Shown here one piece after another: positions 8,131 to 35,581 of a DNA stretch of 45,549 nt. Each line of letters opens with the position of its first letter. Positions within the stretch are counted from its first letter, which is position 1. The position numbers were made by a program, and so were the translations under genes. Below the pieces are notes generated by a model. It saw nothing but the letters and a program-made list of their open reading frames with translations. It was not told where the DNA came from and made no database searches. Origin of the DNA: Rhodospirillaceae bacterium (GTDB lineage Bacteria > Pseudomonadota > Alphaproteobacteria > TMED109); contig CACHHO010000007.1 in the NCBI GenBank assembly GCA_902579545.1, positions 1-45,549 on the forward strand, read 5' to 3'.

Positions 8131-8160
8131 AATATATATATATCACTTAAATTATAAATT

Positions 8161-11629: not shown

Positions 11630-11672
11630 GTTTTGAAATTACAATAAATCTGTTAAACTGGAAAGCATTAAA

Positions 11673-11888
11673 ATGAGATATTTAATTAACTATCAAATCA
11701 AGATTAGTAATGACCAGGATGCTAATGAGGTAATTAGATCTTCTTATACTATTTTAGAAGAGGAAGTAAAAAAATTTGATTTATCTATTACACAAAAAGT
11801 AGAAAACTGGTTTGAAGGTCTTTTTGAAGAAAAACCATTAGACTTATTTATAGATCAAAGAAAGGCCAAGTTTGGCTATGAAAATTGA
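11673..11888 (+). CDS. Small hypothetical protein upstream of fadJ
   Basis: 71 aa: MRYLINYQIKISNDQDANEVIRSS..., acidic, soluble, no recognised family. A GGAAAG sequence lies about 8 nt upstream of the ATG. It ends 51 nt before the FadJ-like gene on the same strand and may be cotranscribed. Confidence 0.55.
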   Translation: MRYLINYQIKISNDQDANEVIRSSYTILEEEVKKFDLSITQKVENWFEGLFEEKPLDLFIDQRKAKFGYEN

Positions 11889-11939
11889 AAGGACAACTAA
11901 TTCAATGTCCGGAGAATATAAAACTTTTTAGGAGAATTT

Positions 11940-14033: not shown

Positions 14034-14042
14034 GAGTTAATT

Positions 14043-15227
14043 ATGAATGAAGCAGTAATAGTATCAACAGCAAGAACACCTATAGGTAAAGCATATAAAG
14101 GTGCGTTTAATAACACACATGGTGCTACACTTGCTGGACATGCCGTAAGAAAAGTAATAGAACTAGCAAATTTAGATCCCCATGAAGTAGAAGATTGCCT
14201 TATGGGGTGTGCTATGCCAGAGGGAGCTACTGGGGGAAATATAGCTAGACAAATTGCAATCAGAGGAGGACTTCCTGTAACTACTGCTGGCGCAACTATT
14301 AATAGATTTTGTTCCTCAGGTATGCAAGCTATCACTATGGCAGCACAAAGAATTATGTCAAATGAATTAGATATTTGCGTAGCAGGAGGATTAGAATCTA
14401 TTAGCCTAGTTCAAAATGAACACCAAAATAATTTTATGGCAAAAGAAGATTGGATTAATCAACATAAACCTGAATTATATTATACTATGATACAAACAGC
14501 AGAAGTAGTTGCTAAAAGATATAATATTTCTAGGGAAGATCAAGATGAATATGGGCTTCAAAGCCAGATAAGAATGGCCAATGCTCAAAAGTCTGGCTAT
14601 TTAGACAAAGAAATATTTCCATTAGAAACAACTAAGTTAATAAAAAATAAAGATACAGAAGAAATAACACAAGAAAAAGTGTGTTTACAAAAGGATGAAG
14701 GCAATAGACCTGATACTTCTATTGATGGATTAAAATCCCTTTCACCTGTGATGGGTCCAAATGCTTATATTACCGCAGGAAATGCAAGTCAATTATCAGA
14801 CGGGGCTTCTGCATGCTTGGTTATGAACTCAAAAAAAGCTGAAAGTTTAAATCTAAATCCTTTAGGTGCATTTAGAGGTATGGCTGTATCAGGACTAGAG
14901 CCTGATGAGATGGGAATAGGACCTATTTATGCCATACCAAAACTGCTTAACAAAAATAACCTTAAAATAGATGATATTGACTTATGGGAATTAAATGAAG
15001 CATTCGCTGTTCAAGTAATATACTGCAGGGATAAACTTGGAATTTCAAATGATATTCTGAATGTTAACGGCGGATCAATAGCAATTGGTCATCCTTATGG
15101 TATGACTGGATCTAGATTAGTAGGCCATGCACTCATAGAAGGAAAAAGAAGAAAGGCAAAAAATGTTGTAGTTACTATGTGTATTGGTGGTGGACAAGGT
15201 GCTGCAGCACTTTTTGAAGTATACTAA
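14043..15227 (+). CDS. fadA: Acetyl-CoA acyltransferase (thiolase)
   Basis: 394 aa. The active-site nucleophile is C90 in [10 protein letters not shown]. The later motifs are [29 protein letters not shown] (catalytic His) and [18 protein letters not shown] (second Cys). It cleaves 3-ketoacyl-CoA to acetyl-CoA, completing the cycle begun by the upstream FadJ-like protein. fadJ and this gene form an operon (9-nt gap, with a GGAG Shine-Dalgarno). A biosynthetic acetoacetyl-CoA thiolase cannot be excluded by sequence alone, but the neighbour favours beta-oxidation. Confidence 0.94.
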
Positions 15228-15299
15228 ATTATATTAACTATAAATATGAACTAATAATAATTAAACTTTTTTATTATAAAAATTTAAGGAAAAACCTTT

Positions 15300-15653
15300 A
15301 TGAAAAAGGAAATTAAAATTTTTAAGCTACTAGTGGCACTCAATGCTTTAACCTCTATTTTAATAACATATTTAATTTTTCTATATAATATAGAATATTT
15401 TGACGTGAAATTAATTTTTATTTTACTCTATGCCTGTGTTTGGTTTTTTTCACTCTATAAAATATATAACTTTTCAAAATTAGGTTTAAATATTTACATG
15501 TCATTAGTGATACTAGGCTTTCTATTAAATTTGTTTTCCGACTTTAAAGTTCTTGGAAAAGCTTATTATGTAACAAGCTTACTGGAACATCTGGTAATAG
15601 GAGGAATAATATCTTTTTCGTTTTATACAAAAATAAAAAGTAAATTTTTATAA
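15300..15653 (+). CDS. Small polytopic membrane protein, unknown function
   Basis: 117 aa with four predicted transmembrane helices (about 9-28, 36-54, 63-81 and 93-110) and short Lys-rich loops. No family recognised. An AAGGA Shine-Dalgarno precedes ATG 15300. It stands 72 nt after the thiolase gene. Confidence 0.62.
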   Translation: MKKEIKIFKLLVALNALTSILITYLIFLYNIEYFDVKLIFILLYACVWFFSLYKIYNFSKLGLNIYMSLVILGFLLNLFSDFKVLGKAYYVTSLLEHLVIGGIISFSFYTKIKSKFL

Positions 15654-15711
15654 AAAGGCGGAGTAAATTTACAATAATGTGCTCCTTCAATTAAAAAGAT
15701 GAATTTTCTGG

Positions 15712-15740
15712 TTTCCAAAATTTATAAATTTTAATATAAT
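15712..15740 (+). promoter_or_regulatory. Candidate sigma-70 promoter for the leader ORF
   Basis: TTTCCA (15712-15717) and TATAAT (15735-15740) are separated by 17 nt and lie just upstream of the very strong ribosome-binding site at 15752-15760. The -10 is a consensus match and the -35 is moderate. Confidence 0.45.
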
Positions 15741-15765
15741 AAAATTTTACGAAAGGAGGTGGTCT

Positions 15766-15819
15766 ATGTCTAAAATTTTAGATCTAGTCACTTTCTATCT
15801 CCGTATAGAAAGTAAATAG
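15766..15819 (+). CDS. 17-aa leader peptide or microprotein with a perfect Shine-Dalgarno
   Basis: The frame ATG...TAG encodes MSKILDLVTFYLRIESK. AAAGGAGGT (15752-15760), fully complementary to the usual 16S rRNA 3' end, sits 5 nt upstream, which is far stronger than at most genes here. The second half of the ORF lies inside a 9-bp hairpin (15790-15798 with 15805-15813), and a factor-independent terminator follows at 15829-15860. The peptide is amphipathic with no runs of one amino acid. It could be a regulatory leader for the downstream gene or a stand-alone microprotein. Confidence 0.6.
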   Translation: MSKILDLVTFYLRIESK

Positions 15820-15828
15820 ATTAATTTG

Positions 15829-15860
15829 AGTGAGAGGACAAAAATATCCTCTCACTTTTT
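15829..15860 (+). terminator. Rho-independent terminator between the leader ORF and the 77-aa gene
   Basis: A perfect 10-bp stem AGTGAGAGGA/TCCTCTCACT with an 8-nt loop, followed by a T run. It lies after the 17-codon ORF and before the Shine-Dalgarno (AAAGGAG) of the next gene. The next gene therefore either needs read-through (attenuation) or its own promoter. Confidence 0.8.
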
Positions 15861-15873
15861 AAAGGAGTATAAT

Positions 15874-16107
15874 ATGAAAAAAATAATTTTAATTACTTTA
15901 AGCCTATCTTTTTTAGTATCGAACGTATTCGCAGGTTGCATGAAAAGTGAAATTAAGCAACTAGATGCAAAGTTGTCAAATACAGAGTTAAGTGAAACTA
16001 AAAAAGCTGAAGTTAAAAAGCTAAGAGATCTTGTTGTTGCTAACGAACATAAAAATTCAGAATTGGCTTTTGAAAGCTATGAAAAGGCTTTAAGCTTATT
16101 AAATTAA
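15874..16107 (+). CDS. Small exported protein, unknown function
   Basis: 77 aa. A clear signal peptide, MKKIILITLSLSFLVSNVFA, is followed by GCMKSE and a helical, charged mature part (KQLDAKLSNTELSETKKAEVKKLRDLV...). Cleavage after FA or lipidation at the adjacent Cys are both possible. A longer frame opens at TTG 15826, but it would run through the terminator, so ATG 15874 with its AAAGGAG site is chosen. No family recognised. Confidence 0.75.
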   Translation: MKKIILITLSLSFLVSNVFAGCMKSEIKQLDAKLSNTELSETKKAEVKKLRDLVVANEHKNSELAFESYEKALSLLN

Positions 16108-16115
16108 ATATATAA

Positions 16116-16145
16116 TTTAGAGTAGGTGTATAAACCTACTCTAAA
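16116..16145. terminator. Bidirectional terminator between convergent genes
   Basis: A 12-bp perfect stem TTTAGAGTAGGT/ACCTACTCTAAA with a 6-nt loop. It overlaps the stop codon of the symporter gene on the other strand. It can end transcription from both the 77-aa gene and the symporter operon. Confidence 0.7.
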
Positions 16146-17610
16146 TATCATTAAATTCGTTTGCTTTTAAAATTTCACCTTTTCTCTGTTTAACTATGCA
16201 GCTAAATACAAACACTGCAATTATATTAAAAGCTAAACCTATTAATCCAGCATGTAGATCATAAAGAGTATTGTCCGAGAAATATTGATAATAAATGGTA
16301 ATGCTCACTCCTAAAATCAAACCAATTATAATTGATAAAGCACTTGCTTTACGGAAAAATAATGAAGCATAAACTGCAGGAGCCAATTGAGCTATTGGTC
16401 CATAGGCACCTAGTAAAAGCTGAATAAGCCCTTCGCTGCCAAAAATAGCTATTAAATACGCTACTGCACCAACTCCAAATACTGCTCCTCTCATAATCCA
16501 TAATTCTATATTTTCAGGAATCTTTGAGTATATAGCTTTACATATATCTCTGCCAAAAGATACTGAGGCTCCATGTGTTATGGCATCAGATGAAGACATG
16601 GCAGCTGCCAATGCTCCAGCGCCAACTATGCCATATAGTAATCCTGACTCTGTAAGATAATTAGTAATCAAATATGGTAAAATTTGTCCAGAGTTTTCTA
16701 TCTGATCATTGCTCACAATACCATATCCCGAAAAACCTATAAATAAAACTGGTAATAAAAACAAAGCAAATATAGGATATACAGCCACCGTAGTCTTAAT
16801 TCTTTTTTCGGTAGTAGTATATGACTTAGTAAATAAATGTGGCCACATTACAAAACCTATCATTGAAATTATAATATTACTACTATACCTAGCTTTAGAC
16901 ATAGACGAGCCTTCTTTTCCAATTATAAGAAAATCATTATTACTGTTATTGATAGTTTCAAACATATTTCCAATTCCTCCATGCAATTTTTGCACAAAAT
17001 ACATGCCTAAAATCCATGCTATAACTAACATCAAAATTGCCTGAAATACATCACTCCAAGCTGCTCCTCTTACTCCGCTAGTCGCAACATATATAACTAC
17101 AATTCCAAAAGATATAAAAGCACCAAACCAATAAGGTATATTATCGTAGGTGAGCACATTAAAAATATAGGCCATACCTTTAATTTGCAATGTAAGATAA
17201 GGTATAAATGCCAATATTGCTACTATTCCTACTATAATTGTTAAAATTTTTGACTGAAACCTATCACCCAGAAAATCTCCCATTGTTATATAATTATTCT
17301 TTTTTCCAATCTTGGCTACTTTAGGACCTATTACATACCAAGGCATTAAACCCAAAGTACAGTAAACTAGAATATAAAAAGAAGCAGCACCTTTTGAATA
17401 AGCCCACCCAGGACCTCCCAGAAAAGCAAAAGCTGAAAATATTGTTCCTCCCATTAAAAACCACATTACAAATAAATTGAAAGACCTATCACCTACTGCA
17501 TACTCGGACAAAGAAAAAAAAGACTTTCCCTTTCCTGCCATGATCCCAATTAAAAATGCCAAAACTAAGTAAATAGAAATAGCTATTAAGGCTATATGCC
17601 ATCTTTCCAT
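16141..17610 (-). CDS. Sodium:solute symporter (SSS family)
   Basis: 489 aa with about 13 transmembrane helices. The sequence is typical of SSS/PutP-type carriers: LSEYAVGDRSFNLFVMWFLMGGTIFSAFAFLGGPGWAYSKG, GVRGAAWSDVFQAILML, and GAGALAAAMSSSDAITHGASVSFGRDI, where Ser residues of the Na2 site are expected. The substrate is not readable; monocarboxylates are carried by some relatives. It follows the DUF3311 gene with one base between stop and start (TAATATG). It is the last gene of gloA-DUF3311-SSS. Confidence 0.92.
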   Translation of the reverse strand: MERWHIALIAISIYLVLAFLIGIMAGKGKSFFSLSEYAVGDRSFNLFVMWFLMGGTIFSAFAFLGGPGWAYSKGAASFYILVYCTLGLMPWYVIGPKVAKIGKKNNYITMGDFLGDRFQSKILTIIVGIVAILAFIPYLTLQIKGMAYIFNVLTYDNIPYWFGAFISFGIVVIYVATSGVRGAAWSDVFQAILMLVIAWILGMYFVQKLHGGIGNMFETINNSNNDFLIIGKEGSSMSKARYSSNIIISMIGFVMWPHLFTKSYTTTEKRIKTTVAVYPIFALFLLPVLFIGFSGYGIVSNDQIENSGQILPYLITNYLTESGLLYGIVGAGALAAAMSSSDAITHGASVSFGRDICKAIYSKIPENIELWIMRGAVFGVGAVAYLIAIFGSEGLIQLLLGAYGPIAQLAPAVYASLFFRKASALSIIIGLILGVSITIYYQYFSDNTLYDLHAGLIGLAFNIIAVFVFSCIVKQRKGEILKANEFNDI

Positions 17611-17611
17611 A

Positions 17612-17821
17612 TTATGGTTCCTCTTTATCTATAAACAAGAAAAAAAGTATTCCTACAAACTGGATCAAAATACAACTGACAATCCAGAACAATGAAAAAG
17701 GTATTCCAAATATAAATGGATCTACTCTGTTACCAATACTATAAATAGGGAATATTAATAAAGCTAAAATAAGTATGCTAAACAAAAAAAAATAAAAATT
17801 TATTTTATCTTTTCTTTTCAT
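17612..17821 (-). CDS. DUF3311 small membrane protein, symporter partner
   Basis: 69 aa with two transmembrane helices. The core IGNRVDPFIFGIPFSLFWIVSCILIQF matches the DUF3311 pattern (RvdP...GiPfslfw). Members are usually encoded directly before an SSS symporter, as here, and are thought to be accessory subunits. It starts 2 nt after the glyoxalase stop codon. The symporter Shine-Dalgarno lies within its last codons. Confidence 0.85.
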   Translation of the reverse strand: MKRKDKINFYFFLFSILILALLIFPIYSIGNRVDPFIFGIPFSLFWIVSCILIQFVGILFFLFIDKEEP

Positions 17822-17823
17822 AA

Positions 17824-18366
17824 CTAAACTGAGTTTTTTTCTATCATATTTGCTTGTAAAATTTCTATCCAGTACCCATCAGGATCTTCAATAAAAGCTA
17901 GCCCCTTCATTTTTCCATCGTCTGGTTTTTTAACAAATTTAACACCTAACTTTTCAAAACGTTCTGCAGCAGCATACACATCAGGTACACTGAAACCAAT
18001 ATGACCAAAGCCTTGAGGGTCTGAGTTTCCATTATGGTATGCAAAGTCGCTGTCATTTTCTGTACCCCAATTATGTGTAAGCTCTAACATAGCCCTTTGG
18101 CTAAATGTCCATGTTGTTCTTTTGTTATCATCATCTGGTACGTTATTGTCGTCAACATCTCCTGCCATTCCTAAAAAATATAATGTAAATTTCATATTTG
18201 GAAAATCAAGTTTTCTGTAAAGCTTCATACCTAAAACTCTAGTATAAAAATCTAACGAAATTTTTGGATCTTTTATCCTTAACATTGTTTGGTTAAATAC
18301 GTAGCTTTGGGTTTCCTCATCTACGTCTTTGTGCAAGCCATCAGAAACTTCATAATGTCTACTCAT
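17824..18366 (-). CDS. gloA: Lactoylglutathione lyase (glyoxalase I)
   Basis: 180 aa. It converts the methylglyoxal-glutathione hemithioacetal to S-lactoylglutathione. The metal ligands of the family are visible: Gln in [11 protein letters not shown], Glu in MLELTHNWG, His in GFGHIGFSV and Glu in PDGYWIEIL. The length and the N-terminal extension are like the eukaryotic/proteobacterial long form. It heads an operon with the DUF3311 and symporter genes (2-nt gap). It is divergent from the GMC module, sharing the 166-nt intergenic region with two Fur boxes. Confidence 0.93.
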
Positions 18367-18475
18367 ATTAATATCCTTATTTAATAATTATATGATACTA
18401 GAAAAAAAAAAAATTGCAGTTTTAATTTTTAATTATATAAAGCTTGAATATTAAAATAAATATATTAAAGTAATT

Positions 18476-18494
18476 GTTAATGAGAATCATTAAC
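18476..18494 (+). promoter_or_regulatory. Fur-type box 1 upstream of the GMC dehydrogenase operon
   Basis: GTTAATGAGAATCATTAAC is a perfect 8-3-8 inverted repeat and matches the classical 19-bp Fur consensus at 15 of 19 positions by eye. It overlaps a possible -35 (TTGTTA, 18474-18479). Confidence 0.7.
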
Positions 18495-18497
18495 ATT

Positions 18498-18516
18498 GAT
18501 AATAATTATTATTATC
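18498..18516 (+). promoter_or_regulatory. Fur-type box 2 upstream of the GMC dehydrogenase operon
   Basis: GATAATAATTATTATTATC is a perfect palindrome around one central base and matches the Fur consensus at 17 of 19 positions. It begins 3 nt after box 1, covers a possible -10 (GATAAT 18498-18503, 18 nt from TTGTTA), and ends 4 nt before the GGGAGGA ribosome-binding site. This is a strong layout for iron-dependent repression. Confidence 0.78.
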
Positions 18517-18532
18517 ACAAGGGAGGAATAAT

Positions 18533-19114
18533 ATGAGTATATCTAGAAGATCTTTTTTAGTTGGAGCATTTGCTACAACTGTTTATGCTTCTTTATGGAG
18601 TATAGATAAGTCTCAAGCTAAAATTTCTGCAGGTTCTAAAAAAGAAGATAAGGAAATTCTTATGAAAATGGTGCGTACCTTGTATCCACATGATAGGTTT
18701 CCAAGTGGACCTTATGATAGGACCACTGAAGATGTTATAAAAAAAGGTAACTCAAGTCCAGACAATGCGGTCATGCTGCAAGAAGGAATTGACAAACTAA
18801 AAGCTGATGGTTTTGATAAATTAAATTTTGAAAAATCTACTGAATATCTTGAAAATATGGGAAGAACAAAGTTTTTTGAACATGTTAGAGGCACAAGTAC
18901 CGTAACACTCTACAATGATAAAGAAGTTTGGGAACTTTTAGGCTATGAAGGCTATAGCTCTGATAAAGGCGGATACATAAATAGGGGGTTCAATGATTTG
19001 GATTGGTTGCCAGAACCCAGAATTGAAGAGCATCCTGATTTAGCTGCATTTTTGAGCGAATCACCTAAAAGATATGCAGAAATTAAAAATATGATAGCCA
19101 AAGAACTAAATTAG
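18533..19114 (+). CDS. Gluconate 2-dehydrogenase subunit 3-like protein, Tat signal (module 1)
   Basis: 193 aa. The Tat signal SISRRSFLVGAFATTVYASLW is followed by EDKEILMKMVRTLYPHDRFPSGPY, typical of the small (gamma) subunit of membrane-type FAD dehydrogenases. That subunit is needed for maturation and co-export of the folded catalytic subunit, which usually has no signal of its own. The GMC gene follows 10 nt later. The paralogue at 22818-23375 shares the ...MRGE/VRG...W...GWEG..YDKGGY-RGF pattern (here YEGYSSDKGGYINRGF). Two Fur boxes lie directly upstream. Confidence 0.87.
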   Translation: MSISRRSFLVGAFATTVYASLWSIDKSQAKISAGSKKEDKEILMKMVRTLYPHDRFPSGPYDRTTEDVIKKGNSSPDNAVMLQEGIDKLKADGFDKLNFEKSTEYLENMGRTKFFEHVRGTSTVTLYNDKEVWELLGYEGYSSDKGGYINRGFNDLDWLPEPRIEEHPDLAAFLSESPKRYAEIKNMIAKELN

Positions 19115-19124
19115 GGAGAAAAAT

Positions 19125-20690
19125 ATGAAAAAAATTGATCAAAAAGAAAGCGCTGTAGTAGTTATTGGTTCCGGTGCTGGAGGTGGTACAATGGTTTATG
19201 AACTTACAAAAGCAGGAATTCCTTGCGTTTGTTTAGAAGCTGGACCTTTTCTTAAACCAGAAGATTATACCAATGATGAGTGGGGAGCTTTTGGACAAAT
19301 GGCATGGTTAGACAAAAGAACTACTAGTGGAAACTGGAGAGTTGCTAAAGACTTCCCAGGTCTGCCAACCTGGCTGGTTAAAGCAGTAGGAGGAACTACA
19401 ACTCATTGGGCGGGAGCTACTCCTAGATTTTTAGAATATGAATTTAAAACTAAATCAACCTACGGAGACATTAAAGGTGCAAGCCTTATGGACTGGCCTA
19501 TATCCTTGAAAGATATGGAACCTTATTATACTAAAGCTGAAAATGCTATTGGATCAACCCATAGAGGTGGTAGGGCAGCTTTGCCAGCTAATAATAATTA
19601 TAAAGTTTTCGCTAATGGAGCTAAAAATGTTGGATATAAATTTTATGCAACTGGCCCTTATGGAACTAATGCTGAGCCTTATGATGGGCGTCCTGGCTCT
19701 ATACAAGATGGTTTTAATTTCCAAGGAGACAAAAATGGTTCTAAGTGGAGCACTGCTAAAAGAGAGATTCCAAGGGCTTTAGATACAGGGCTATTGGATT
19801 TAAGAACACATGCTCATGTAATAAAAATTACGCATGACAAAGAAGGCAATGCTGACGGGGTATTATATATGGACAAAGATAATAATCTTCAAAAGCAAGC
19901 CGCTAAAGTAGTTATAGTGTCAGGTAACTCTATAGAATCGCCAAGACTCTTAATGTTAAGCGAGTCATCTATGTATCCTGATGGATTAGCTAATAGCTCA
20001 GGTCAAGTAGGAAGAAACTACATGAGGCATATGACTGGTTCAATGTATGCTAGGTTTGAAAAGCCTGTTAACTTCTATAGAGGTGAAACCATGGCAGGAT
20101 TTTGTGCCGATGAAGTAAAACATAATCCTAACAGAGGATTTGCTGGAGGCTATTATATGGAAACCTTAGCACTAGGGCCTGCATTTATGGGAGCCTTTTT
20201 AGAACCAGGAGGTTGGGGCAGAGAGTTTACTAATATGATGGATGGATACCAAAACCTAGCAGGAATGTGGTTAGTAGGTGAGGATATGCCTCAGTCAAAT
20301 AATAGAATTACTCTTTCTAAAACCGAAAAGGATCAATATGGATTACCTGTGCCTAATGTACATTTTGATGATCATCCTAATGATGTTGCAATGAGAGAGT
20401 ATGCTTATGAAAAAGCAGAGGCACTATATAAGTCGGTGGGTGCAGTTCAAACATGGAGAACTCCTCCGTATCCATCAACTCATAACTTAGGCACAAACAG
20501 AATGAGTGCAAAAGCTAAAGACGGAGTAGTTGATAAGTGGGGAAGATCTCATGATATTAAAAACTTATTTGTAGCTGATGGATCTGTAATGACAACGGGA
20601 GCGGCAGCTAATCCTACTCTTACGATTACTGCACTTGCTATAAGAACTGGTGAGTATTTAGCTTCTGAGCTGAAAAAAAATAATATATAA
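19125..20690 (+). CDS. GMC-family FAD-dependent dehydrogenase lacking the Fe-S cysteines (module 1)
   Basis: 521 aa. The FAD Rossmann motif VVIGSGAGGGTMVYEL is followed by HWAGATPRF, GNSIESPRLL and the C-terminal His/Asn active-site segments STHNLGTNRM and GAAANPTLTITALA. It is about as long as paralogue 2 and aligns without gaps across the cluster region. Where paralogue 2 has C194, C200 and C204, this protein has S192, N198 and D202, and the GTCRM cysteine is also replaced (GTNRM). It should oxidise a sugar, sugar acid or alcohol in the periplasm together with the Tat subunit. The substrate is unknown. Confidence 0.9.
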   Translation: MKKIDQKESAVVVIGSGAGGGTMVYELTKAGIPCVCLEAGPFLKPEDYTNDEWGAFGQMAWLDKRTTSGNWRVAKDFPGLPTWLVKAVGGTTTHWAGATPRFLEYEFKTKSTYGDIKGASLMDWPISLKDMEPYYTKAENAIGSTHRGGRAALPANNNYKVFANGAKNVGYKFYATGPYGTNAEPYDGRPGSIQDGFNFQGDKNGSKWSTAKREIPRALDTGLLDLRTHAHVIKITHDKEGNADGVLYMDKDNNLQKQAAKVVIVSGNSIESPRLLMLSESSMYPDGLANSSGQVGRNYMRHMTGSMYARFEKPVNFYRGETMAGFCADEVKHNPNRGFAGGYYMETLALGPAFMGAFLEPGGWGREFTNMMDGYQNLAGMWLVGEDMPQSNNRITLSKTEKDQYGLPVPNVHFDDHPNDVAMREYAYEKAEALYKSVGAVQTWRTPPYPSTHNLGTNRMSAKAKDGVVDKWGRSHDIKNLFVADGSVMTTGAAANPTLTITALAIRTGEYLASELKKNNI

Positions 20691-20716
20691 TTGGTTAAAT
20701 ATTAACTCCATAAAGT

Positions 20717-20748
20717 AGAACGAGTAAGAATTTTATCTTACTCGTTCT
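20717..20748 (+). terminator. 13-bp hairpin between GMC gene 1 and the cytochrome gene
   Basis: AGAACGAGTAAGA pairs perfectly with TCTTACTCGTTCT around a 6-nt loop, 27 nt after the GMC stop. There is no T run after it, so it may be a weak terminator, a processing site or an mRNA 3' stabiliser. A TATAAT follows immediately (20750-20755), so the cytochrome gene could have its own promoter. Confidence 0.6.
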
Positions 20749-20795
20749 GTATAATAAGAATACAAAATTTAATTTAACACTCTCGATATTTAAAA

Positions 20796-21172
20796 ATGAT
20801 TAAAAAGAAATTTCTTACTAATTATTCATTAATAACACTAACTTTTTTTACATTTTTTTTTTTACTAAAGTTTACTCTTTAAATCCACTATCTAAAGATC
20901 AAAAATCAATTATTATTGGAAAAGAGCTTTACAAAAATATCTGTGCTAATTGTCATGGGGATAATGCGCAAGGAAAAGATAACGGCTTTTTCTTATCTCC
21001 AAACTTAAGAGTTTTTGATAAAGGGTATAAAGGTTTTATAAATATTTTAACAAACGGCTATGGAAGAATGCCGGCTTGGGGTGGGAGATCAAAGTTAAGC
21101 GTGGAACAACTAAATCAATTGGCAGCTTACATAGAAAAAATTTCATTAGATAGATCATACTGGGAAAAGTAG
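20796..21172 (+). pseudogene. Small exported cytochrome c, reading frame broken at an 11-T run
   Basis: ATG 20796 encodes a signal peptide (MIKKKFLTNYSLITLTFFTF) but its frame stops at 20880-20882. A second frame, ending at TAG 21170-21172, encodes SLNPLSKDQKSIIIGKELYK, then CANCHG (heme-binding CxxCH), GDNAQGKDNGFFLSPNLR, and GRMPAWGGRSKLS, with Met as likely axial ligand. It has no start codon of its own before the heme site. Adding one T to the T11 tract (20853-20863) joins the two parts into a normal class I cytochrome c of about 125 aa with a signal peptide ending VYS. It may be a sequencing error, a recent mutation or slippage-dependent expression. It probably takes electrons from the GMC dehydrogenases. 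Confidence 0.8.
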
Positions 21173-21179
21173 TACTAAA

Positions 21180-21207
21180 AAGGCTCATCTAAAAAAAGAT
21201 GAGCCTT
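21180..21207. terminator. Bidirectional terminator between the two GMC modules
   Basis: A perfect 11-bp stem AAGGCTCATCT/AGATGAGCCTT with a 6-A loop. For minus-strand transcripts from GMC gene 2 the stem is followed by a run of Ts (AGCCTTTTTAG). It sits 8 nt after the cytochrome stop and 14 nt from the GMC 2 stop. Confidence 0.8.
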
Positions 21208-21220
21208 GATAGATATTTAC

Positions 21221-22798
21221 TTATATAGTACCTTTTGCCATTTCCTTTGCAATGTGCTCTGCTTGTCTTATAGCAAGTGATACTATAGTAAGTGTTGGGT
21301 TTTCAGCTGCTCCTGTTGTAAATTGACTTCCATCAGATATAAACAAATTAGCAATATCATGTGATTTGCCATTCTTATCACACACACCATCTCTTGGTTT
21401 AGCACTCATTCTACATGTACCTAAATTATGTGTGGAAGGATACGGTGGAGTTTCAAAAACATCCAATGCTCCCGCAGCCTTATAAACATCTGTGCCTTTA
21501 CCAAATGCATGTTTTCTCATTTTTAAATCATTTTCATGATCATCAAAATGAACATTAGGAACCGGCATACCATTTTGGTCTTTTTCACTAGTATTCAAAG
21601 TTACTCTATTAGACTCCTGAGGCATATCTTCTCCTACAATCCACATGCCAGCCATATGGTCATAATTGTCTAAAAATTTACCCATTTTAGGACCATATCC
21701 TGTTGTACCAGGAACTAAAAAAGCCGCCATAAATGGTAAACCTAAAGATAATGTTTCCATCTCATATCCACCTACAAAACCTCTGGAAGGATCATTTCTT
21801 GACTCATCTGTAATAATTCCAGCCATTGTTGTTCCTCTGTGCATATTAACTGGTTTATCCATTAAAGCATAAACGGAAGCAGTAAGATGTCTCATATAAT
21901 TTTTTCCAACTTGTCCAGCAGAGTTAGATAATCCATCTGGGTACATAGATGTATTCGACATAAGAAGTAGTCTTGGTGTTTCTATTGAGTTTCCTGCAAC
22001 AGCAACAATTCTAGCTTTTTGCTTTTGCTGGTTACCATCTTTATCTACATAAACCACTCCGTCAATCTTACCACTCTTATTATGTGTAATTTGAATAACA
22101 TGAGCTTGGGTTCTTAACTCAAAGTTACCAGTTTTTTCTGCTTTGGGAATCTCCGTATATCCAGCTGACCACTTTGCTCCAGACTTACATCCTTGAAAAC
22201 AAAAACCTAGTTGTAAACAGGCATTTCTACCATCTCTAGGCATGCTGTTAATACCCATTCTACCAGTATGACAGTCTTTATAACCCATTTTTTGAGCTCC
22301 GTCATAAAGAACTTTAAAGTTATTATTTCCTGGCAAACCAGGTATTCCATGTGTTCTTGTTACACCTATTTTGTCTTCAGCTTTGTCATAATATGGTTCC
22401 ATTTCTTTAAGAGAAATAGGCCAGTCTAGTAGGTTTGCTCCTGCAATATCACCATATTCTGTTTTTACTTTAAATTCATGCTCTTGAAACCTTAAAGAAG
22501 CACCAGCCCAGTGTAATGTAGAGCCACCCACACTCTTAACTATCCAAGATGGAAGCCCTGGAAAATCTGTAGCAACCCTCCAGCTACCTGAAGTGGTTCT
22601 TTTGTCTAGCCAAGCTGTTTGTAGAAATGCAGCCCACTCATCATTAACAAAATCATCCGTTGTATACCTTTTTCCTGCTTCTAGACATACAACATTAATT
22701 CCTTTTTGAGCCAACTCATTAGAAAGAGTTCCTCCACCTGCTCCAGAGCCTATAACTACTGCAACAGTATCATCATTTAAATCAAATTTTTTTGCCAT
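21221..22798 (-). CDS. GMC-family FAD-dependent dehydrogenase with Fe-S cysteine motif (module 2)
   Basis: 525 aa from ATG 22798 (MAKKFDLNDD), chosen because GGGAGAAA precedes it; a longer frame opens at 22873 inside the upstream gene. It has the FAD motif VVIGSGAGGGTLSNEL, HWAGASLRF, and active-site segments STHNLGTCRM and GAAENPTLTI. The motif C194-x5-C200-x3-C204 (in NACLQLGFCFQGCKSGAKW) matches the position of the [3Fe-4S] cluster in gluconate, glucose and fructose FAD dehydrogenases, which passes electrons from FAD to a cytochrome. It is highly similar to the plus-strand paralogue. It is cotranscribed with its Tat subunit (19-nt gap). Confidence 0.9.
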   Translation of the reverse strand: MAKKFDLNDDTVAVVIGSGAGGGTLSNELAQKGINVVCLEAGKRYTTDDFVNDEWAAFLQTAWLDKRTTSGSWRVATDFPGLPSWIVKSVGGSTLHWAGASLRFQEHEFKVKTEYGDIAGANLLDWPISLKEMEPYYDKAEDKIGVTRTHGIPGLPGNNNFKVLYDGAQKMGYKDCHTGRMGINSMPRDGRNACLQLGFCFQGCKSGAKWSAGYTEIPKAEKTGNFELRTQAHVIQITHNKSGKIDGVVYVDKDGNQQKQKARIVAVAGNSIETPRLLLMSNTSMYPDGLSNSAGQVGKNYMRHLTASVYALMDKPVNMHRGTTMAGIITDESRNDPSRGFVGGYEMETLSLGLPFMAAFLVPGTTGYGPKMGKFLDNYDHMAGMWIVGEDMPQESNRVTLNTSEKDQNGMPVPNVHFDDHENDLKMRKHAFGKGTDVYKAAGALDVFETPPYPSTHNLGTCRMSAKPRDGVCDKNGKSHDIANLFISDGSQFTTGAAENPTLTIVSLAIRQAEHIAKEMAKGTI

Positions 22799-22817
22799 TT
22801 TTAATTTCTCCCTATGT

Positions 22818-23375
22818 TTATTCCCACCAGCCTTTTGGACTAGCTTCTTCTGATGGTTGTGGCCAGTCTGCATCCTGGAAACCTCTTAAATAATAACCGC
22901 CTTTGTCATAAGCGGCACCTTCCCAGCCTGCAACATCCCAGACTCTTTTATTGTTAAAAAAGACATTTACCATCTCTCCTCTCATGGTATTAAAAAAATT
23001 ATTTCCTTCCATTGACTTGAGAACATTCATTCTTTTTTTGATAGAGGCTTCAGTATATTTTCCGCCAGCTGCTTTATCAAATTCTGCTACTCCTTTTACT
23101 AAAGCAGACTTAACTGATTCGTCTTTTAATGCTTTACCATCAAGAGAATCTACAGCTATCATATATAAATCGTCTGTAAACCTTTTACCTGGAAACATAT
23201 CTTTTCCAACTAACAACATAGTTTTGGCAACGTGATTATCAATAGCGCTCTTCTTTGCAGCCCAAGCATTAAAAGAACTTAACTGAACAGCTCCTCCTGC
23301 TAAAACCACAAACCCTGAAGTCTTTCCTGCTTTCTGCAGAAAAGATCTTCGGCTTATATTTACATTATTCTTCAT
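22818..23375 (-). CDS. Gluconate 2-dehydrogenase subunit 3-like protein, Tat signal (module 2)
   Basis: 185 aa. The Tat signal ISRRSFLQKAGKTSGFVVLAG ends at about NAWA-A. The mature part has KTMLLVGKDMFPGKRFTDDLY and the C-terminal GWEGAAYDKGGYYLRGFQDADW. It is the partner of the downstream Cys-containing GMC dehydrogenase, serving as export and maturation subunit. A strong GGAGGAG Shine-Dalgarno precedes ATG 23375. No Fur-like box is visible in the 96-nt region upstream, in contrast to module 1. Confidence 0.88.
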   Translation of the reverse strand: MKNNVNISRRSFLQKAGKTSGFVVLAGGAVQLSSFNAWAAKKSAIDNHVAKTMLLVGKDMFPGKRFTDDLYMIAVDSLDGKALKDESVKSALVKGVAEFDKAAGGKYTEASIKKRMNVLKSMEGNNFFNTMRGEMVNVFFNNKRVWDVAGWEGAAYDKGGYYLRGFQDADWPQPSEEASPKGWWE

Positions 23376-23471
23376 ATCTCCTCCCGTGTAATATTAGAAC
23401 TTAAATATAACTACCACTATAGTACATACTTAAATGTAATTTACAATAGCAATACAAAAATATTTTGTTAA

Positions 23472-23915
23472 TTAATCAATAGTATAACAATATCCATGAG
23501 CAATGTGGACATAATCTACTTCATTCCCTTTTCCATTTATCCAATAATCTGTAATTAATGTTTTTCTATACCTTAATGAAACTAGAGAGAATTTAATATT
23601 GTAAGTATTATTCTTGTCCACAGGACTACATTGAATTAAATTTAATTCTTTATTTTTTTTACAATCGAATTTATATTTTGCTTCAAACTTTTTTTCTCTA
23701 GTACTTTCCTTTTCAGTTAAAAGAGAAAATTGCTTGTTAAAATTAAATACAGTTTTATGAGGAAAAAACTCTGTCTCTTTCAAAAATTTACGTTGAAATT
23801 GAAATAACCCGCTAACTCTTGTTTCTGTTAAACATTCAAAATTATTTTCTGCCTGGCCCTCTATACTTAAAATGAAACTAATAAAAATATATAAAAATAA
23901 TTTTAACTTTATCAT
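23472..23915 (-). CDS. Exported protein of unknown function
   Basis: 147 aa with a signal peptide (MIKLKLFLYIFISFILSIEG, cleavage near QA-E) and a mature domain with four cysteines (FECLTET, FDCKK, IQCSPV, GYCYTID) that could form two disulfides. No family recognised. It begins 4 nt after the SDR stop on the same strand, so it probably belongs to that transcript. Confidence 0.7.
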   Translation of the reverse strand: MIKLKLFLYIFISFILSIEGQAENNFECLTETRVSGLFQFQRKFLKETEFFPHKTVFNFNKQFSLLTEKESTREKKFEAKYKFDCKKNKELNLIQCSPVDKNNTYNIKFSLVSLRYRKTLITDYWINGKGNEVDYVHIAHGYCYTID

Positions 23916-23919
23916 ATAT

Positions 23920-24693
23920 TTATCCTCTGCCAGCTATCGTTATTCCGCCGTCCATAGTTATAACTTGTCCTGTAATAAATGCTCCTGGATCAGAAGCTAA
24001 TAATATTGCTGCTCCTGCAACTTCATCAGTATTACCTATTCTTTTAAGAGGTGCATAATTTTCAATATTTTTTAAAATTTTTGGGTTTTCCCAGAGTGCT
24101 CTAGCAAAGTCAGTTTTAATGATTCCAGGACACAACCCATTTACAGTTATATTAAATTCTCCTAGCTCTACTGCTAAGCTTCTTATTAATCCTATATCAG
24201 CTGTTTTAGATACTGAGTAAGCTCCCAAATTTTTTACTCCTTGTAATCCAGCAATTGAAGAAACTACTATAATAGATGCTTTTTTCTGTTTTTTCATATG
24301 AGGAATTGAGCTCTTACATAACCATAAATTTGACTTAACATTATTATTCATAATTTTATCAAAACTCTCATCTGGTATGTCAGATAAATTACCATAATAT
24401 GGATTGCTAGCTGCATTACACACTAAGATATCTAATTTGCCATATTTATTTATTGCAAACTCTACTAACTTTTCACAAGACTTTTTATTAGATATATTGC
24501 ATTCAAATGAAGAAGCCTCTCCATTGCCACTAACTATCTCATTTGCAATTAATTTACAAGCGTCTAAATTTCTCGATGATACAATTACACTTGCTCCTAG
24601 CTCTGCATACCTTATTGCTATTGCCTTACCGATGCCTCTTGAGGAACCTGTAATTATAGCTACTTTATTTTTCAAACTAAAAAAATCATTCAT
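23920..24693 (-). CDS. Short-chain dehydrogenase/reductase (SDR)
   Basis: 257 aa classical SDR. The cofactor motif is AIITGSSRGIGKAIA (TGxxxGxG), with NNAG-like CNAASNPYY, the catalytic Ser in IIVVSSIAG, and YSVSK (Tyr/Lys). PGIIKTDFARALWENP and a C-terminal GAFITGQVITMDGG complete the fold. Arg after the first strand (SSRN) suggests NADP(H). The substrate is not assignable. ATG 24693 is chosen, as AGGAG lies 5 nt upstream; GTG 24699 is in frame. It is divergent from the class II aldolase. Confidence 0.9.
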   Translation of the reverse strand: MNDFFSLKNKVAIITGSSRGIGKAIAIRYAELGASVIVSSRNLDACKLIANEIVSGNGEASSFECNISNKKSCEKLVEFAINKYGKLDILVCNAASNPYYGNLSDIPDESFDKIMNNNVKSNLWLCKSSIPHMKKQKKASIIVVSSIAGLQGVKNLGAYSVSKTADIGLIRSLAVELGEFNITVNGLCPGIIKTDFARALWENPKILKNIENYAPLKRIGNTDEVAGAAILLASDPGAFITGQVITMDGGITIAGRG

Positions 24694-24777
24694 GCTCACT
24701 CCTAAAATATGCTTAGCATAAATGTTTTTACAAATTAAGTCGAATGTATTAATGTATAAATAAATTTAGGAGAAATT

Positions 24778-25569
24778 ATGTCTGAGCATGATGCAAAAGT
24801 AAAAACTAATCATCTGGAGATAGAAAAGTCATGTATGAAGTCTTATGAAGAGCTTACTGAACAAGAATTAAGAATTCAACTTGCTGCATCTTATAGGCTA
24901 GTTGAACAGTTAGGCTGGTCATTTTTAATATTTGGACATCTAACTGCAAGAGTACCGGGCCCGGAAAAGCATTTTCTCATTAATCCTTATGGATTAATGT
25001 ATGATGAAGTAACAGCATCTAATCTAGTTAAAATAGATTTAGAAGGAAATATAGTAGAGCCGACAGAATGGGAAGTAAATCCTGCAGGTTTTATTATTCA
25101 TTCAGCTGTACATTCTACCAAAACTAATGCTCACTGTGTGATGCATACACATACAAATGCTGGAATGGCAATGGCAGGGCTAAAACAAGGTATCATTAAT
25201 ATTGATTTTAGCGGATCTGCTTTTCATAATAAAGTAGCTTATCATGATTTCGAAGGAGTTACACTTAGAAGTGATGAGTGTAAGAGAATTGCTGATGACC
25301 TAGGTGATAAAAGTATTATGATATTAAGAAACCATGGTTTACTTACAACAGGCTCTACGGTAGCAGAAGCATTTATGAAGCTATATACATTAGAAAGCGC
25401 TTGTCAAGTACAACTAATGGCTCGTGCCTGTAATGAAAAACTTGAATATGTATCAGAAGATGTCTTAAATAGACATGCTAAAGATTTAAAAGATGCTGGA
25501 AGCTACAAGCTTGCCTTCAGAGCACTGGTAAGAAGAATGTTGAAAAAAGACGCAAGTTTTATTTTATAA
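24778..25569 (+). CDS. Class II aldolase/adducin family protein
   Basis: 263 aa. Zinc ligands of the class II aldolase fold are H123 and H125 in MHTHTNAG and H186 in LRNHGLLT; the substrate loop has GHLTARVPG and [14 protein letters not shown]. Relatives include fuculose- and rhamnulose-phosphate aldolases, but most members annotated as class II aldolase/adducin without a sugar operon are uncharacterised. A good AGGAG precedes ATG 24778. The divergent SDR, with only 84 nt between them, may share a regulator. Confidence 0.88.
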
Positions 25570-25597
25570 TGTATCAATATCAATAAGGAGAATTTTT

Positions 25598-25732
25598 GTG
25601 AAAAGAACTTTTCAACCTAGTAAATTAGTTAGAAAAAGAAGGCACGGTTTTAGAGCAAGAATGGCAACAAAGGCAGGAAGGTTAGTTTTATCAAGAAGAA
25701 GAGCTAAAGGCCGTCAAAGACTATCTGCTTAG
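25598..25732 (+). CDS. rpmH: 50S ribosomal protein L34
   Basis: 44 aa read directly: [20 protein letters not shown] followed by [24 protein letters not shown]. This is the complete, invariant L34 sequence type. It uses a GTG start (25598) with AAGGAG upstream. It begins the conserved rpmH-rnpA-yidC-engB series. Confidence 0.97.
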
Positions 25733-25741
25733 TCATATTAA

Positions 25742-26092
25742 ATGCTTTATAATAAATTAAAGAAAAAAGATGATTATGCATCCGTTTTCAGATCTGGTAA
25801 ATACTTCAAACTTGATTCAGTAGTAATACAACATAATGAAAGAAAGAATTCAGAGTTATTTAATGAACCTAGATATGGAATTATAGCAAGCAAAAAAATT
25901 GGAAATTCGGCTAAAAGAAATTATGCTAAAAGAAGGCTTAGAACACTAATTGATAAAATTGCTTGCTATGGAGAAAAAAACTCAGATTACATTTTTGTAG
26001 CAAAAAAAAAATTGCTTAGTGAAAAATTTAGTATACTAATCTTAGATTTAAAAAATGGTTTAAATAAAATTAAAGAAAAAAACAATGAATGA
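25742..26092 (+). CDS. rnpA: Ribonuclease P protein component
   Basis: 116 aa. The RNR motif segment RYGIIASKKIGNSAKRNYAKRRLRTLI is diagnostic. It binds the RNase P RNA that matures tRNA 5' ends. It starts 9 nt after rpmH. Its stop overlaps the yidC start by 8 nt (ATGAATGA). No yidD lies between rnpA and yidC. Confidence 0.95.
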   Translation: MLYNKLKKKDDYASVFRSGKYFKLDSVVIQHNERKNSELFNEPRYGIIASKKIGNSAKRNYAKRRLRTLIDKIACYGEKNSDYIFVAKKKLLSEKFSILILDLKNGLNKIKEKNNE

Positions 26093-27743
26093 ACAAAAGA
26101 ATTTACTATTAGCTATTGTAGCATCATTAATTATATTATTAATTTTTCAATATCTATTTCCAACTGAAAGAAAAATTGTTAACGATAATAATAGCAAAAC
26201 CTTAGAAAATCAAAAAGTTGAACAAAACATACCTGTTTTAAAAAGAGAAGAAATAATAAATAATACTGATAGAATAAGTTTTTCCTTAAAATCTAGATTA
26301 ATTGGCTCCATTCCTTTAAAAGGATTAAGGTTTGATGACATTATATTAAATGATTATAAAGAAACAATACTTTCTGATTCAGAAAAAGTAAAACTACTAT
26401 CACCTAATAAAACTAATAATCCTTATTTTATTGAACTCGGATGGATGTCTCAGGAAAATGTTTATTTGCCTCAAAAGGACAGTGTTTGGGAGTTGATTGA
26501 GGGAAAGGAATTAGGCCCTGAAAGCCCTGTTACACTTAAATGGTCCTCTCCAGACGGACTAGAGTTTATTAGAAAAATTTCCTTAGATGAAAACTTTCTC
26601 TTTAATATAGAGCAAAGAGTAATTAATAAGTCTGAAAAAAAATATAATCTTACACAATATGGAAGAATAAATAGATCAGGAACACCTAAAACATCAGGAT
26701 TTTACATTTTACATGAAGGGCCTATTGCTGTGCTCAACGACAGACTCATAGAAATAGATTATGATGATCTTATTGAAGATGGTCCATCAAGTAATATTAG
26801 TAAAGGGGGTTGGATAGGAATAACAGATAAATATTGGTTAACCGCTCTAATACCTAATCAGAAATTTAATATTGAAGCAGGATTTAAAGCAACCTTAAAT
26901 AAAACTGAGAGGTATCAAGTACAATATACTAGTGCTCAAATAGAACTTGAACCAGGAGATGAAACATTAATAATCTCTAATGTTTTTGTTGGAGCAAAAG
27001 AAGTTGATCTATTAGACAAATATTCCAAAATACTTAATTTAAATATGTTTGACAGGGCAGTTGATTTTGGTTGGTTTTATATAATTACTAAACCTCTCTT
27101 TTTAATCTTACACAAATTTTCATCTATTTTTGGAAATGTTGGATTATCAATTCTAGCTTTAACTGTTTTAATAAGAATTTTTTTGTTTCCACTTGCAAAT
27201 AAATCTTTTAAGTCAATGAGTAAAATGAAAATTCTTACTCCAAAAATGACAGAAATAAGAGAGAGATATAAGAATGACAAATTAAAGATGCAACAGGAAA
27301 TTATGGCTTTATATAAAGCTGAAAAAGTAAATCCTTTATCAGGGTGTCTTCCTATTTTAATTCAAATTCCAATTTTTTTCGCACTTTACAAAGTATTGTT
27401 TGTTACATTAGAGACTAGGCATGCTCCTTTTTATGGATGGGTAAAAGATTTATCAGCTCCTGATCCTACCACAATATTTAATCTATTTGGAATTTTAAAT
27501 TTTTCTCCACCCTCATTTTTAATGATAGGAGCATGGCCACTACTTATGGCCTTAACTATGTATTTACAACAAAAACTTAATCCTGCTCCTCCAGACCCTC
27601 TACAAGCAAAAATAATGTCTTTTTTGCCATTAATGTTTTTATTTTTATTTGCCACGTTTCCTGCAGGCTTAGTAATTTATTGGACTTGGAATAATGTTCT
27701 ATCAATAGGACAACAATGGATTATTATGAAAAAAACTAAATAA
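26085..27743 (+). CDS. yidC: Membrane protein insertase YidC
   Basis: 552 aa. An N-terminal transmembrane anchor (LLLAIVASLIILLIFQYLFP) is followed by a periplasmic domain (about 60-330) and the conserved five-helix insertase core from GWFYIITKPLFLILHKFSSIFGNVGLSILALTVLIRIFLFPL. The core includes the Lys-rich cytoplasmic loop, LSGCLPILIQIPIFFALYKVL, and MSFLPLMFLFLFATFPAGLVIYWTWNNVLSI. It inserts inner-membrane proteins with or without SecYEG. Length is typical of Gram-negative YidC. Confidence 0.97.
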   Translation: MNEQKNLLLAIVASLIILLIFQYLFPTERKIVNDNNSKTLENQKVEQNIPVLKREEIINNTDRISFSLKSRLIGSIPLKGLRFDDIILNDYKETILSDSEKVKLLSPNKTNNPYFIELGWMSQENVYLPQKDSVWELIEGKELGPESPVTLKWSSPDGLEFIRKISLDENFLFNIEQRVINKSEKKYNLTQYGRINRSGTPKTSGFYILHEGPIAVLNDRLIEIDYDDLIEDGPSSNISKGGWIGITDKYWLTALIPNQKFNIEAGFKATLNKTERYQVQYTSAQIELEPGDETLIISNVFVGAKEVDLLDKYSKILNLNMFDRAVDFGWFYIITKPLFLILHKFSSIFGNVGLSILALTVLIRIFLFPLANKSFKSMSKMKILTPKMTEIRERYKNDKLKMQQEIMALYKAEKVNPLSGCLPILIQIPIFFALYKVLFVTLETRHAPFYGWVKDLSAPDPTTIFNLFGILNFSPPSFLMIGAWPLLMALTMYLQQKLNPAPPDPLQAKIMSFLPLMFLFLFATFPAGLVIYWTWNNVLSIGQQWIIMKKTK

Positions 27744-27747
27744 TATT

Positions 27748-28338
27748 ATGAAAACCTACAATTTTAATGCTGTTGGAGCTAAATTTAGTTTTAAAAGCTA
27801 TAAAGAATTAAATTCTTTTGGACTTCCCGAAGTATGTTTTACTGGAAGGTCTAATGTTGGAAAATCATCACTAATAAATGCCATTACAAATAGAAAGACA
27901 ATTGCTACTACTTCTAATAAACCTGGACATACAAAAAAAATATTTTTTTTTAAGATAGATAAAAAATTTATACTAGTTGATTTACCAGGATATGGGTTTG
28001 CAAAAGTCTCAAAGAGGAAAACTCAAGAAATGTCTAGCTTGCTTGATTCATATTTAACAAAAAGGACATTTTTAAAAAAGGCCTTCATATTGATAGATGC
28101 AAGAAGAGGCCTCAAAGAAATTGATATAAACTTTTTAGAATTTTTGTTTAAAAACAAAGTTCCTTTTCAAATTGTTCTAACTAAAATTGACAAGTTAAGC
28201 AAACAAGACGAAAATGATTTACTACAAGGTTTCAATCTACATAAATTAATTATTGACTCAGTTCCTATTTTTACTAGTGCTAAAACTAAACTAGGGATTA
28301 AAGATATCAGAAAAAATATAATTAATTCTATAATTTAG
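27748..28338 (+). CDS. engB: Ribosome biogenesis GTP-binding protein EngB (YsxC/YihA)
   Basis: 196 aa TRAFAC GTPase. G1 is GRSNVGKSSLINAI, G2 lies around TTSNKPGHTKKIFFF, G3 is DLPGYGFAKV and G4 is TKIDKL. It assists late 50S assembly. It is 4 nt after yidC and separated by one base from argB, part of a conserved alphaproteobacterial string. Confidence 0.96.
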   Translation: MKTYNFNAVGAKFSFKSYKELNSFGLPEVCFTGRSNVGKSSLINAITNRKTIATTSNKPGHTKKIFFFKIDKKFILVDLPGYGFAKVSKRKTQEMSSLLDSYLTKRTFLKKAFILIDARRGLKEIDINFLEFLFKNKVPFQIVLTKIDKLSKQDENDLLQGFNLHKLIIDSVPIFTSAKTKLGIKDIRKNIINSII

Positions 28339-28339
28339 T

Positions 28340-29215
28340 ATGCAAAATTTAATAAAGAAAATTTCAAAATTAATACCTGCTTCAGAAAAAGAAGTAAAAT
28401 CAAATTTAAAAAAATATATTGGAGAAACGGTTGTTATAAAATATGGAGGAAGTGCCATGGTTGATCCTAATCTTTCAAATGACTTTTCAATAAATATAAA
28501 ATTTTTAGTTGATTTAGGAATAAAACCAATAATAGTGCATGGTGGAGGGCCTCAAATAAATGAAATGCTAAACAAATTAAAAATTAAACATAATTTCTTT
28601 AATGGAATGAGAATAACAAATAAGGAAACCTTTAGAATAGTTGAAATGGTGCTATGTGGTTTTATTAATAAAAATATATCACATAACCTTTCTAAAAAAG
28701 GAGTAAACTCAATCGGCTTATCAGGATTAGATTCTAATACTATAATAGTCAACAAATATAAAAAGAAGAGAACCTCAGACCCAGATTTAGGGTTAGTAGG
28801 AGTACCCAGAAAAATTAATAAAGGTTTTTTAAATAGTTTAATCTCTAAAAAGCTAGTCCCGGTTATTGCTCCGATAGGGTCAAATAATAATGGCATAAAA
28901 TATAATATTAATGCTGATCTTACTGCAGGATTTATAGCAGCTGAAATGAGATCAAGAAGATTGCTTATGCTAACAGATGTAAAAGGAGTAATAGACAATA
29001 ATCAAAATCTTATAAGTGAGTTAAAATTAAGTGAAGTTAATTCATTAATTTCTAATAACGTAATTTATGGCGGGATGATACCTAAAGTTAAAACATGTAT
29101 AGATGCCGTGAAAAGAGGCATTAGGGCATCAGTAATAATAGATGGAAGAGTTAAAAATGTAATTATAAAAGAATTATTAAGTGACAAAGGAATAGGAACA
29201 CTATTTAGAAAATAA
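28340..29215 (+). CDS. argB: Acetylglutamate kinase
   Basis: 291 aa. Motifs are VVIKYGGSAMVD (phosphate binding), PIIVHGGGPQIN, the Arg-containing FFNGMRITN, and NINADLTAGFIAAEM with LLMLTDVKGV. It phosphorylates N-acetylglutamate in arginine synthesis. One base separates it from engB. An N-terminal helical extension is present but the length is typical. Confidence 0.96.
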   Translation: MQNLIKKISKLIPASEKEVKSNLKKYIGETVVIKYGGSAMVDPNLSNDFSINIKFLVDLGIKPIIVHGGGPQINEMLNKLKIKHNFFNGMRITNKETFRIVEMVLCGFINKNISHNLSKKGVNSIGLSGLDSNTIIVNKYKKKRTSDPDLGLVGVPRKINKGFLNSLISKKLVPVIAPIGSNNNGIKYNINADLTAGFIAAEMRSRRLLMLTDVKGVIDNNQNLISELKLSEVNSLISNNVIYGGMIPKVKTCIDAVKRGIRASVIIDGRVKNVIIKELLSDKGIGTLFRK

Positions 29216-29221
29216 TTAATT

Positions 29222-29860
29222 ATGAAAAATTTACTAATTGATTTGGACAATACTGTTTATCCTGAAGATTCTCAAATATTTCAGCAGATAGACTTAAAAA
29301 TGAAAAGTTTTATATCTGAAAATTTAAATGTAACCATTAAAGATGCCTATAAAATTCAAAAACAATATTTTATTGAGCACGGCACCACTCTGAGAGGATT
29401 AATGTTATATCATAAAATTGATCCTGATTTATTTTTAGACTATGTACATAAAATAGATTTAAGCAGTATTAATAAAAATGAAACCCTCTTAAACCTTTTA
29501 AAAAGCTATAAAGGTAAAAAAATTATATTTACTAATGGATCCCTTAACCATGCAATTAAAATATTAGAAAAAGTAGGGATCCAGAGTTATATTGATAATA
29601 TCTTTGATATAAAAGATGCTGACTATATACCTAAACCTAATCTTATTACATATACAAAAGTTTTAAATAAATTTAATTTAAAGGCTTCTAAAACCATTAT
29701 GATTGATGACTTACCTATCAACCTTAAATCAGCTAAAGATTTAGGCATCAAAACAGTTCTAATTAAAAAAAATATTGATAATAAAGCCTATGATTATATA
29801 GATCTTGTAAGTGAAGATTTGGTCGATACACTAATAAAAATAAATAATGAGGATTTATAA
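29222..29860 (+). CDS. HAD-family hydrolase, pyrimidine 5'-nucleotidase type
   Basis: 212 aa. HAD motifs are [11 protein letters not shown] (nucleophile Asp and DxD), [11 protein letters not shown] (Thr/Ser), KPN (Lys) and [18 protein letters not shown] (acidic pair). The insert and the motif DNTVYP match the SDT1/pyrimidine 5'-nucleotidase subgroup, which dephosphorylates UMP and CMP in yeast. The position between argB and dapD is frequent in alphaproteobacteria. Its stop shares a base with the dapD start (TAATG). Confidence 0.87.
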
Positions 29861-32720: not shown

Positions 32721-32755
32721 ATAATTAATTTATAATATATTTTACAATAGTTTAC

Positions 32756-33667: not shown

Positions 33668-33671
33668 AAAT

Positions 33672-35580: not shown

Positions 35581-35581
35581 T

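Follow-up and report, generated by a model that had tools for sequence, protein, structure and literature searches.

A cytochrome c gene divided at a run of eleven Ts in a draft marine alphaproteobacterial genome, probably through a homopolymer length error of the assembly

Genes interrupted at long homopolymers have been described in several bacteria. In Citrobacter rodentium, an A11 run in tssM1 gives about 20% frameshifting, with transcripts containing 10-15 A (PMC4256274). In Blochmannia vafer, eight genes are frameshifted within polyA/T tracts and may be rescued (PMC3017870). The frequent long runs in the coding sequences of some AT-rich genomes were taken by Baranov et al. as a case of suppressed slippage (PMC1088944). 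The locus considered here lies in a contig of 45,549 nucleotides, the whole of which was analysed and is called the window. As with tssM1 (PMC4256274), an 11-base homopolymer stands ahead of a premature stop and the continuing frame is conserved. However, slippage in tssM1 was shown by mass spectrometry of the mRNA and by protein, whereas the window locus is known from sequence alone and an assembly error is well supported. As with B. vafer (PMC3017870), the genome is AT-rich, long A/T runs are numerous within genes, and the split genes include essential ones. The Blochmannia frameshifts in polyA/T tracts belong to a finished genome, while several of those found here sit at runs of 6-8, cluster on one draft contig, and affect genes that are unsplit in relatives.

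The interrupted gene encodes a recognizable type of protein. Like other class I monoheme cytochromes c of the PF13442 family, its product, once the two frames are joined, would have an N-terminal CxxCH site, a distal Met in MPAW, a signal peptide and a mature protein of about 100 residues, but it differs in fitting no named NCBIfam subfamily above the cut-off. Cytochrome subunits of FAD-dependent GMC dehydrogenases, such as those of fructose dehydrogenase (7w2j) and FAD glucose dehydrogenase (6a2u), are likewise encoded beside the GMC large subunit. The fructose dehydrogenase cytochrome subunit is, however, a protein of 486 residues, whereas that of the window is small, carries a single heme and matches it weakly (8.8e-6). 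The features of the locus are as follows.

18533-19114, forward strand: small subunit-like protein carrying an RR signal (SRRSFL) and lying upstream of GMC1 as its partner; Pfam gave no match above threshold
19125-20690, forward strand: GMC1, FAD dehydrogenase large subunit (glucose/fructose dehydrogenase-like), from domain and structural-database matches
20718-20752, no strand assigned: perfect inverted repeat AGAACGAGTAAGA..TCTTACTCGTTCT, a terminator-like hairpin between GMC1 and the cytochrome gene
20796-20882, forward strand: ATG frame, with the signal-peptide n-region MIKKK and hydrophobic core, then an early TAA
20822-21172, forward strand: heme frame, with the end of the signal peptide (KVYS/LNPLS, the slash marking that end), CANCH heme site, MPAW distal Met and TAG; class I monoheme cytochrome c
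20843-20849, forward strand: T7 run, within the overlap of both frames; alternative indel site
20853-20863, forward strand: T11 run, where the length discrepancy most probably lies
21221-22873, reverse strand: GMC2, convergent paralogue of GMC1 with 62% identity to it
22818-23375, reverse strand: small subunit-like protein, the partner of GMC2, with 31% identity to the protein at 18533-19114; Gluconate_2-dh3 match at 0.058, below threshold

The original prediction described a signal-peptide frame and a CANCHG frame that are out of register between 20796 and 21172, and the sequence matches this description. Read directly, the ATG at 20796 opens a frame encoding MIKKKFLTNYSLITLTFFTFFFLLKFTL that ends at the TAA at 20880-20882; when the 100 nt upstream were shuffled, a signal-like ATG frame running into the tract arose in 22 of 5000 cases. 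The heme frame is open from 20822 to 21169, ends with the TAG at 21170-21172 and reads ...TKVYSLNPLS..CANCHG..MPAWGG..YWEK, also written ...TKVYSLNPLSKDQ..CANCHG..RMPAWGG..YWEK. None of 5000 dinucleotide shuffles kept its 102 codons free of stops, indicating that the frame did not arise by chance. As had been stated, it lacks an ordinary start codon: ATG, GTG and TTG are all absent upstream of the internal M of MPAW (21068). A non-AUG start within the heme frame was considered and rejected, since the frame has no start codon and no n-region charges and the orthologues use ATG. The indel had been placed in the T11 run. Because the stretch 20822-20882 is shared by the two frames and spans both T runs, the indel could also sit in T7; T11 is the likelier site, being more error-prone, but it is not the sole candidate. 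The core of the signal peptide is written partly in these T runs, as Phe codons.

The heme frame matches PF13442 (Cytochrome_CBB3, CcoP heme-domain-like) at 1.9e-15, with 57.4 bits against a cut-off of 27, while in NCBIfam it falls below the cut-off of every named subfamily, leaving a generic assignment. In an alignment of seven sequences the cysteines and histidine of CANCH, which form the CxxCH site of a class I cytochrome c, are invariant, and RMPAWGG, with the C-terminal axial Met, is common to all full-length homologues aligned. Compared with the syntenic orthologue from the same genus, the heme frame is 64% identical, with a dN of 0.27 and a dS of 1.34. The resulting dN/dS of about 0.2 indicates that the frame has been selected as a protein, and on this sequence evidence the heme frame belongs to a genuine gene.

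Among whole genomes from the same family, some carry a homologue of the cytochrome and others do not. Syntenic loci were collected with the adjacent GMC gene as the query; a scan of genome contigs with the cytochrome as a single protein query gave no relative, and a search of viral contigs for this locus, allowing T runs of any length, found nothing. Each of the close homologues (L003, L004, L005, L006, L013 and L016) is a single frame with an ATG and a signal peptide, although the C-terminal half of L013 is missing. An NPLS or NPIS motif follows the signal in all of them but L003 and aligns with the LNPLS of the window. In MED606, of the same genus (L003/L078), an intact cytochrome gene occupies the identical syntenic position between two GMC genes. 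These results bear out the earlier view that the two frames together form a single cytochrome c gene that includes a signal peptide, and they indicate that a division into two frames is not the natural structure of this gene. The suggestion that orthologues might start inside the heme frame failed, as they instead have one uninterrupted frame with its own ATG and signal peptide, and export in one continuous frame is thus seen in the orthologues, while in the window the signal peptide sits in the other frame. The T tract is absent at the corresponding place in the same-genus orthologue and in the other homologues; it is therefore not a conserved device.

The cytochrome gene is missing from the syntenic spot in AG-390-K05 (L098) and SP3058 (L079), and so it is accessory, or dispensable. 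From the gene content of these two relatives, the locus is gained and lost among close relatives. SP3058 also lacks GMC2 and its partner. A split gene in the same SP3058 record lies within an N-rich stretch and in all likelihood reflects faulty assembly of that record, and a TGA counted inside another orthologue (G005) proved to be its regular stop, located where the match ends, and not an interruption. In two larger-genome relatives (L007 and L008), the open frame that holds the cytochrome homologue spans about 385 residues and has a long, apparently fused C-terminal region. Another relative, L084 (PAYS01000045.1), has two cytochrome homologues separated by about 6 kb, and one of them heads a small-subunit/GMC operon.

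The placement of the gene between two dehydrogenase modules was likewise confirmed, as it is flanked by two GMC oxidoreductases sharing 62% identity with each other, each paired with a small partner bearing an RR signal. The best structural-database matches of GMC1 are FAD glucose dehydrogenase (FAD-GDH) and fructose dehydrogenase. In L084 and L100, the cytochrome, small subunit and GMC genes follow in that order on one strand. This arrangement, together with the FAD-GDH and fructose dehydrogenase relatives of GMC1, makes it reasonable to suppose that the cytochrome serves as the electron acceptor of the neighbouring GMC enzyme. The inverted repeat at 20718-20752 was seen by direct reading and was not listed by a simple terminator scan; the same-genus orthologue has a different hairpin at the equivalent place.

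In a clean assembly, a split at T11 would call for a biological explanation, but this assembly proved not to be clean. As a control on it, a 465-kb sample of the same genome was taken as stretches. Breaks were identified by coding potential and by eye, so that the list gives a minimum and cannot serve as an unbiased rate; a first frameshift Viterbi search gave mostly overlapping gene boundaries, and its breaks were left out. In this sample, A/T runs of 6-11 coincide with or adjoin a further 13 frame breaks, in ispD, pncC (two), pyrG, trpE, ntrX (two), ntrY (two), a TPR gene, rplU, atpA and a class II DAHP synthase gene. Several of these genes (pyrG, rplU, atpA, ispD and trpE) are single-copy or essential. 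The profile matches of the two halves abut in pyrG, rplU, trpE, pncC, atpA, ispD and the class II DAHP synthase gene. An A6 lies beside the ispD junction, yet no run of at least 5 was counted between the two marker peptides. Searches of the genome itself found rplU and pyrG only as two pieces each. By contrast, pyrG is unsplit in all 22 other family genomes that gave a match (including two partial matches, of which one begins 28 bases from the end of its contig), rplU is unsplit in 21 of 21, and the pncC orthologues in other assemblies are also unsplit.

The breaks are unevenly distributed. One contig, C10, makes up 8% of the sample and holds 9 of the 14 breaks, which under uniformity has a p of about 2e-7. 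Its two stretches (L193, positions 1-20000, and L194, positions 20001-36985) contain at least 9 homopolymer-linked breaks, all with an offset of 1, in ispD, pncC (two), pyrG, trpE, ntrX (two) and ntrY (two). The quality of contig C10 is poor, and such clustering is expected from a locally poor assembly. On contig C12 (L196), rplU is split at an A8 at about 11397 and atpA at an A6 at about 731. Taken together, the interruption of pyrG, rplU and atpA at runs of 6-8, the clustering on C10 and the lack of splits in relatives indicate that the assembly contains errors in homopolymer length.

Long A/T runs are also ordinary coding sequence in this organism. Across the 465 kb, A/T runs of at least 8 are mostly in frame within coding ORFs. 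Runs of 11-17, including an A16 and a T15, are common in intact coding genes, with little sign of coding avoidance. A T14 lies in frame within the signal peptide MLIKIILIFFFFIKTNLS of another secreted protein (L043 1464-1823; C2 near 57652). Signal-peptide cores written in T runs are normal in this genome.

Among the three options offered by the original prediction, assembly error has emerged as the best supported, because this assembly interrupts essential genes, too, at homopolymers, while phase variation and slippage have gained nothing. Both essential single-copy genes broken at homopolymers and unsplit orthologues (of pyrG, rplU, pncC and the cytochrome gene itself) were found, and it is probable that the split of the cytochrome is an artefact of the draft assembly caused by a homopolymer length error. 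That this particular run is one of the assembly's errors is nonetheless an extrapolation from the other genes. Counting against it, the frame offset is 2 at the cytochrome break and 1 in all 13 others, indicating that the break is not the same insertion-type error; agreement in sign would have been supporting evidence and not a defining property. In addition, the contig of the cytochrome is otherwise clean, with 46 A/T runs of at least 8 in 45.5 kb and no second break found, and the gene is dispensable in relatives. These same observations speak for a real tract length, the gene then carrying a recent or still polymorphic inactivating indel as an accessory cytochrome on its way to loss, without any recoding. 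The patchy occurrence of the gene at the locus, intact in MED606 and absent from AG-390-K05 and SP3058, means that such a lesion would be tolerable, and the cytochrome evolves faster than most of its neighbours (64% identity against mostly 80-95%). A genuine lesion is a serious alternative, ranking second to assembly error, but it seems unlikely, as no second lesion has accumulated over the 102 codons, the heme, Met and C-terminal motifs are all retained, and homopolymer miscalls are well supported in the same assembly.

The remaining explanations would have the cell bridge or exploit the tract. If T11 is real, RNA polymerase slippage could restore the frame in a fraction of the transcripts and so yield an exported cytochrome. 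Runs of 11 bases are slippery enough elsewhere, as the A11 of C. rodentium tssM1 demonstrates, B. vafer provides a precedent for frameshifted polyA/T genes that are possibly rescued, the heme frame is under constraint, and a homopolymer of at least 9 bases does lie at the frame junction. But the run is not conserved among the orthologues, even in that of the same genus, distinct A/T runs of at least 11 elsewhere in this genome are mostly in frame inside intact genes, a pattern of the kind from which Baranov et al. concluded that slippage is suppressed (PMC1088944), and any real T11 would slip somewhat, so that slippage does not explain the split itself; this account is quite improbable. Its stricter form is more doubtful again: with a T11 that is real and also fixed, this free-living marine alphaproteobacterium with an AT-rich genome would produce the periplasmic cytochrome solely by RNA polymerase slippage within the signal-peptide core and would export a fraction of the product; if true, a slippage-only cytochrome would extend endosymbiont-style rescue to free-living plankton. 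A feature absent from the original prediction is the heptamer U UUU UUA at 20858-20864, formed by the 0-frame codons TTT TTT TTA CTA. It is an X XXY YYZ sequence in the proper phase, with the heme frame in the -1 register, as programmed -1 ribosomal frameshifting would demand. Joining of the frames by the ribosome is still very hard to credit: the downstream sequence forms no stimulatory structure (z of -0.5, with 58 of 200 shuffles folding as well), no purine-rich stretch resembling a Shine-Dalgarno sequence lies just 5' of the site, the heptamer is missing in the orthologues, and it arises from any T run of that phase before an A. Equally implausible is a contingency switch in which the phase-variable T tract turns export of the cytochrome on or off. 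The tract is a mononucleotide run close to the 5' end of a gene for a secreted protein, but it is not conserved, the product is a soluble electron carrier and not a surface antigen, and dozens of similar runs lie in the housekeeping genes of this genome.

The identity of the gene as one for a class I monoheme cytochrome c is confirmed. Based on the assembly control and the orthologues, it would be one ordinary gene whose secreted product accepts electrons from the GMC-type FAD dehydrogenase encoded next to it. Through a homopolymer miscall of the draft assembly, one T run, most likely T11, would have been given a length that departs from that of the true molecule, and in the cell the frame would be continuous, with nothing special at the tract. 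The draft breaks pyrG, rplU, atpA and ispD at A/T runs, which calls for caution: given those breaks, split genes in this assembly should not be taken for pseudogenes, phase variation or recoding unless the reads are consulted. The underlying biology is ordinary: among AT-rich marine alphaproteobacteria, a small cytochrome is kept patchily next to a sugar-type dehydrogenase of the GMC family.
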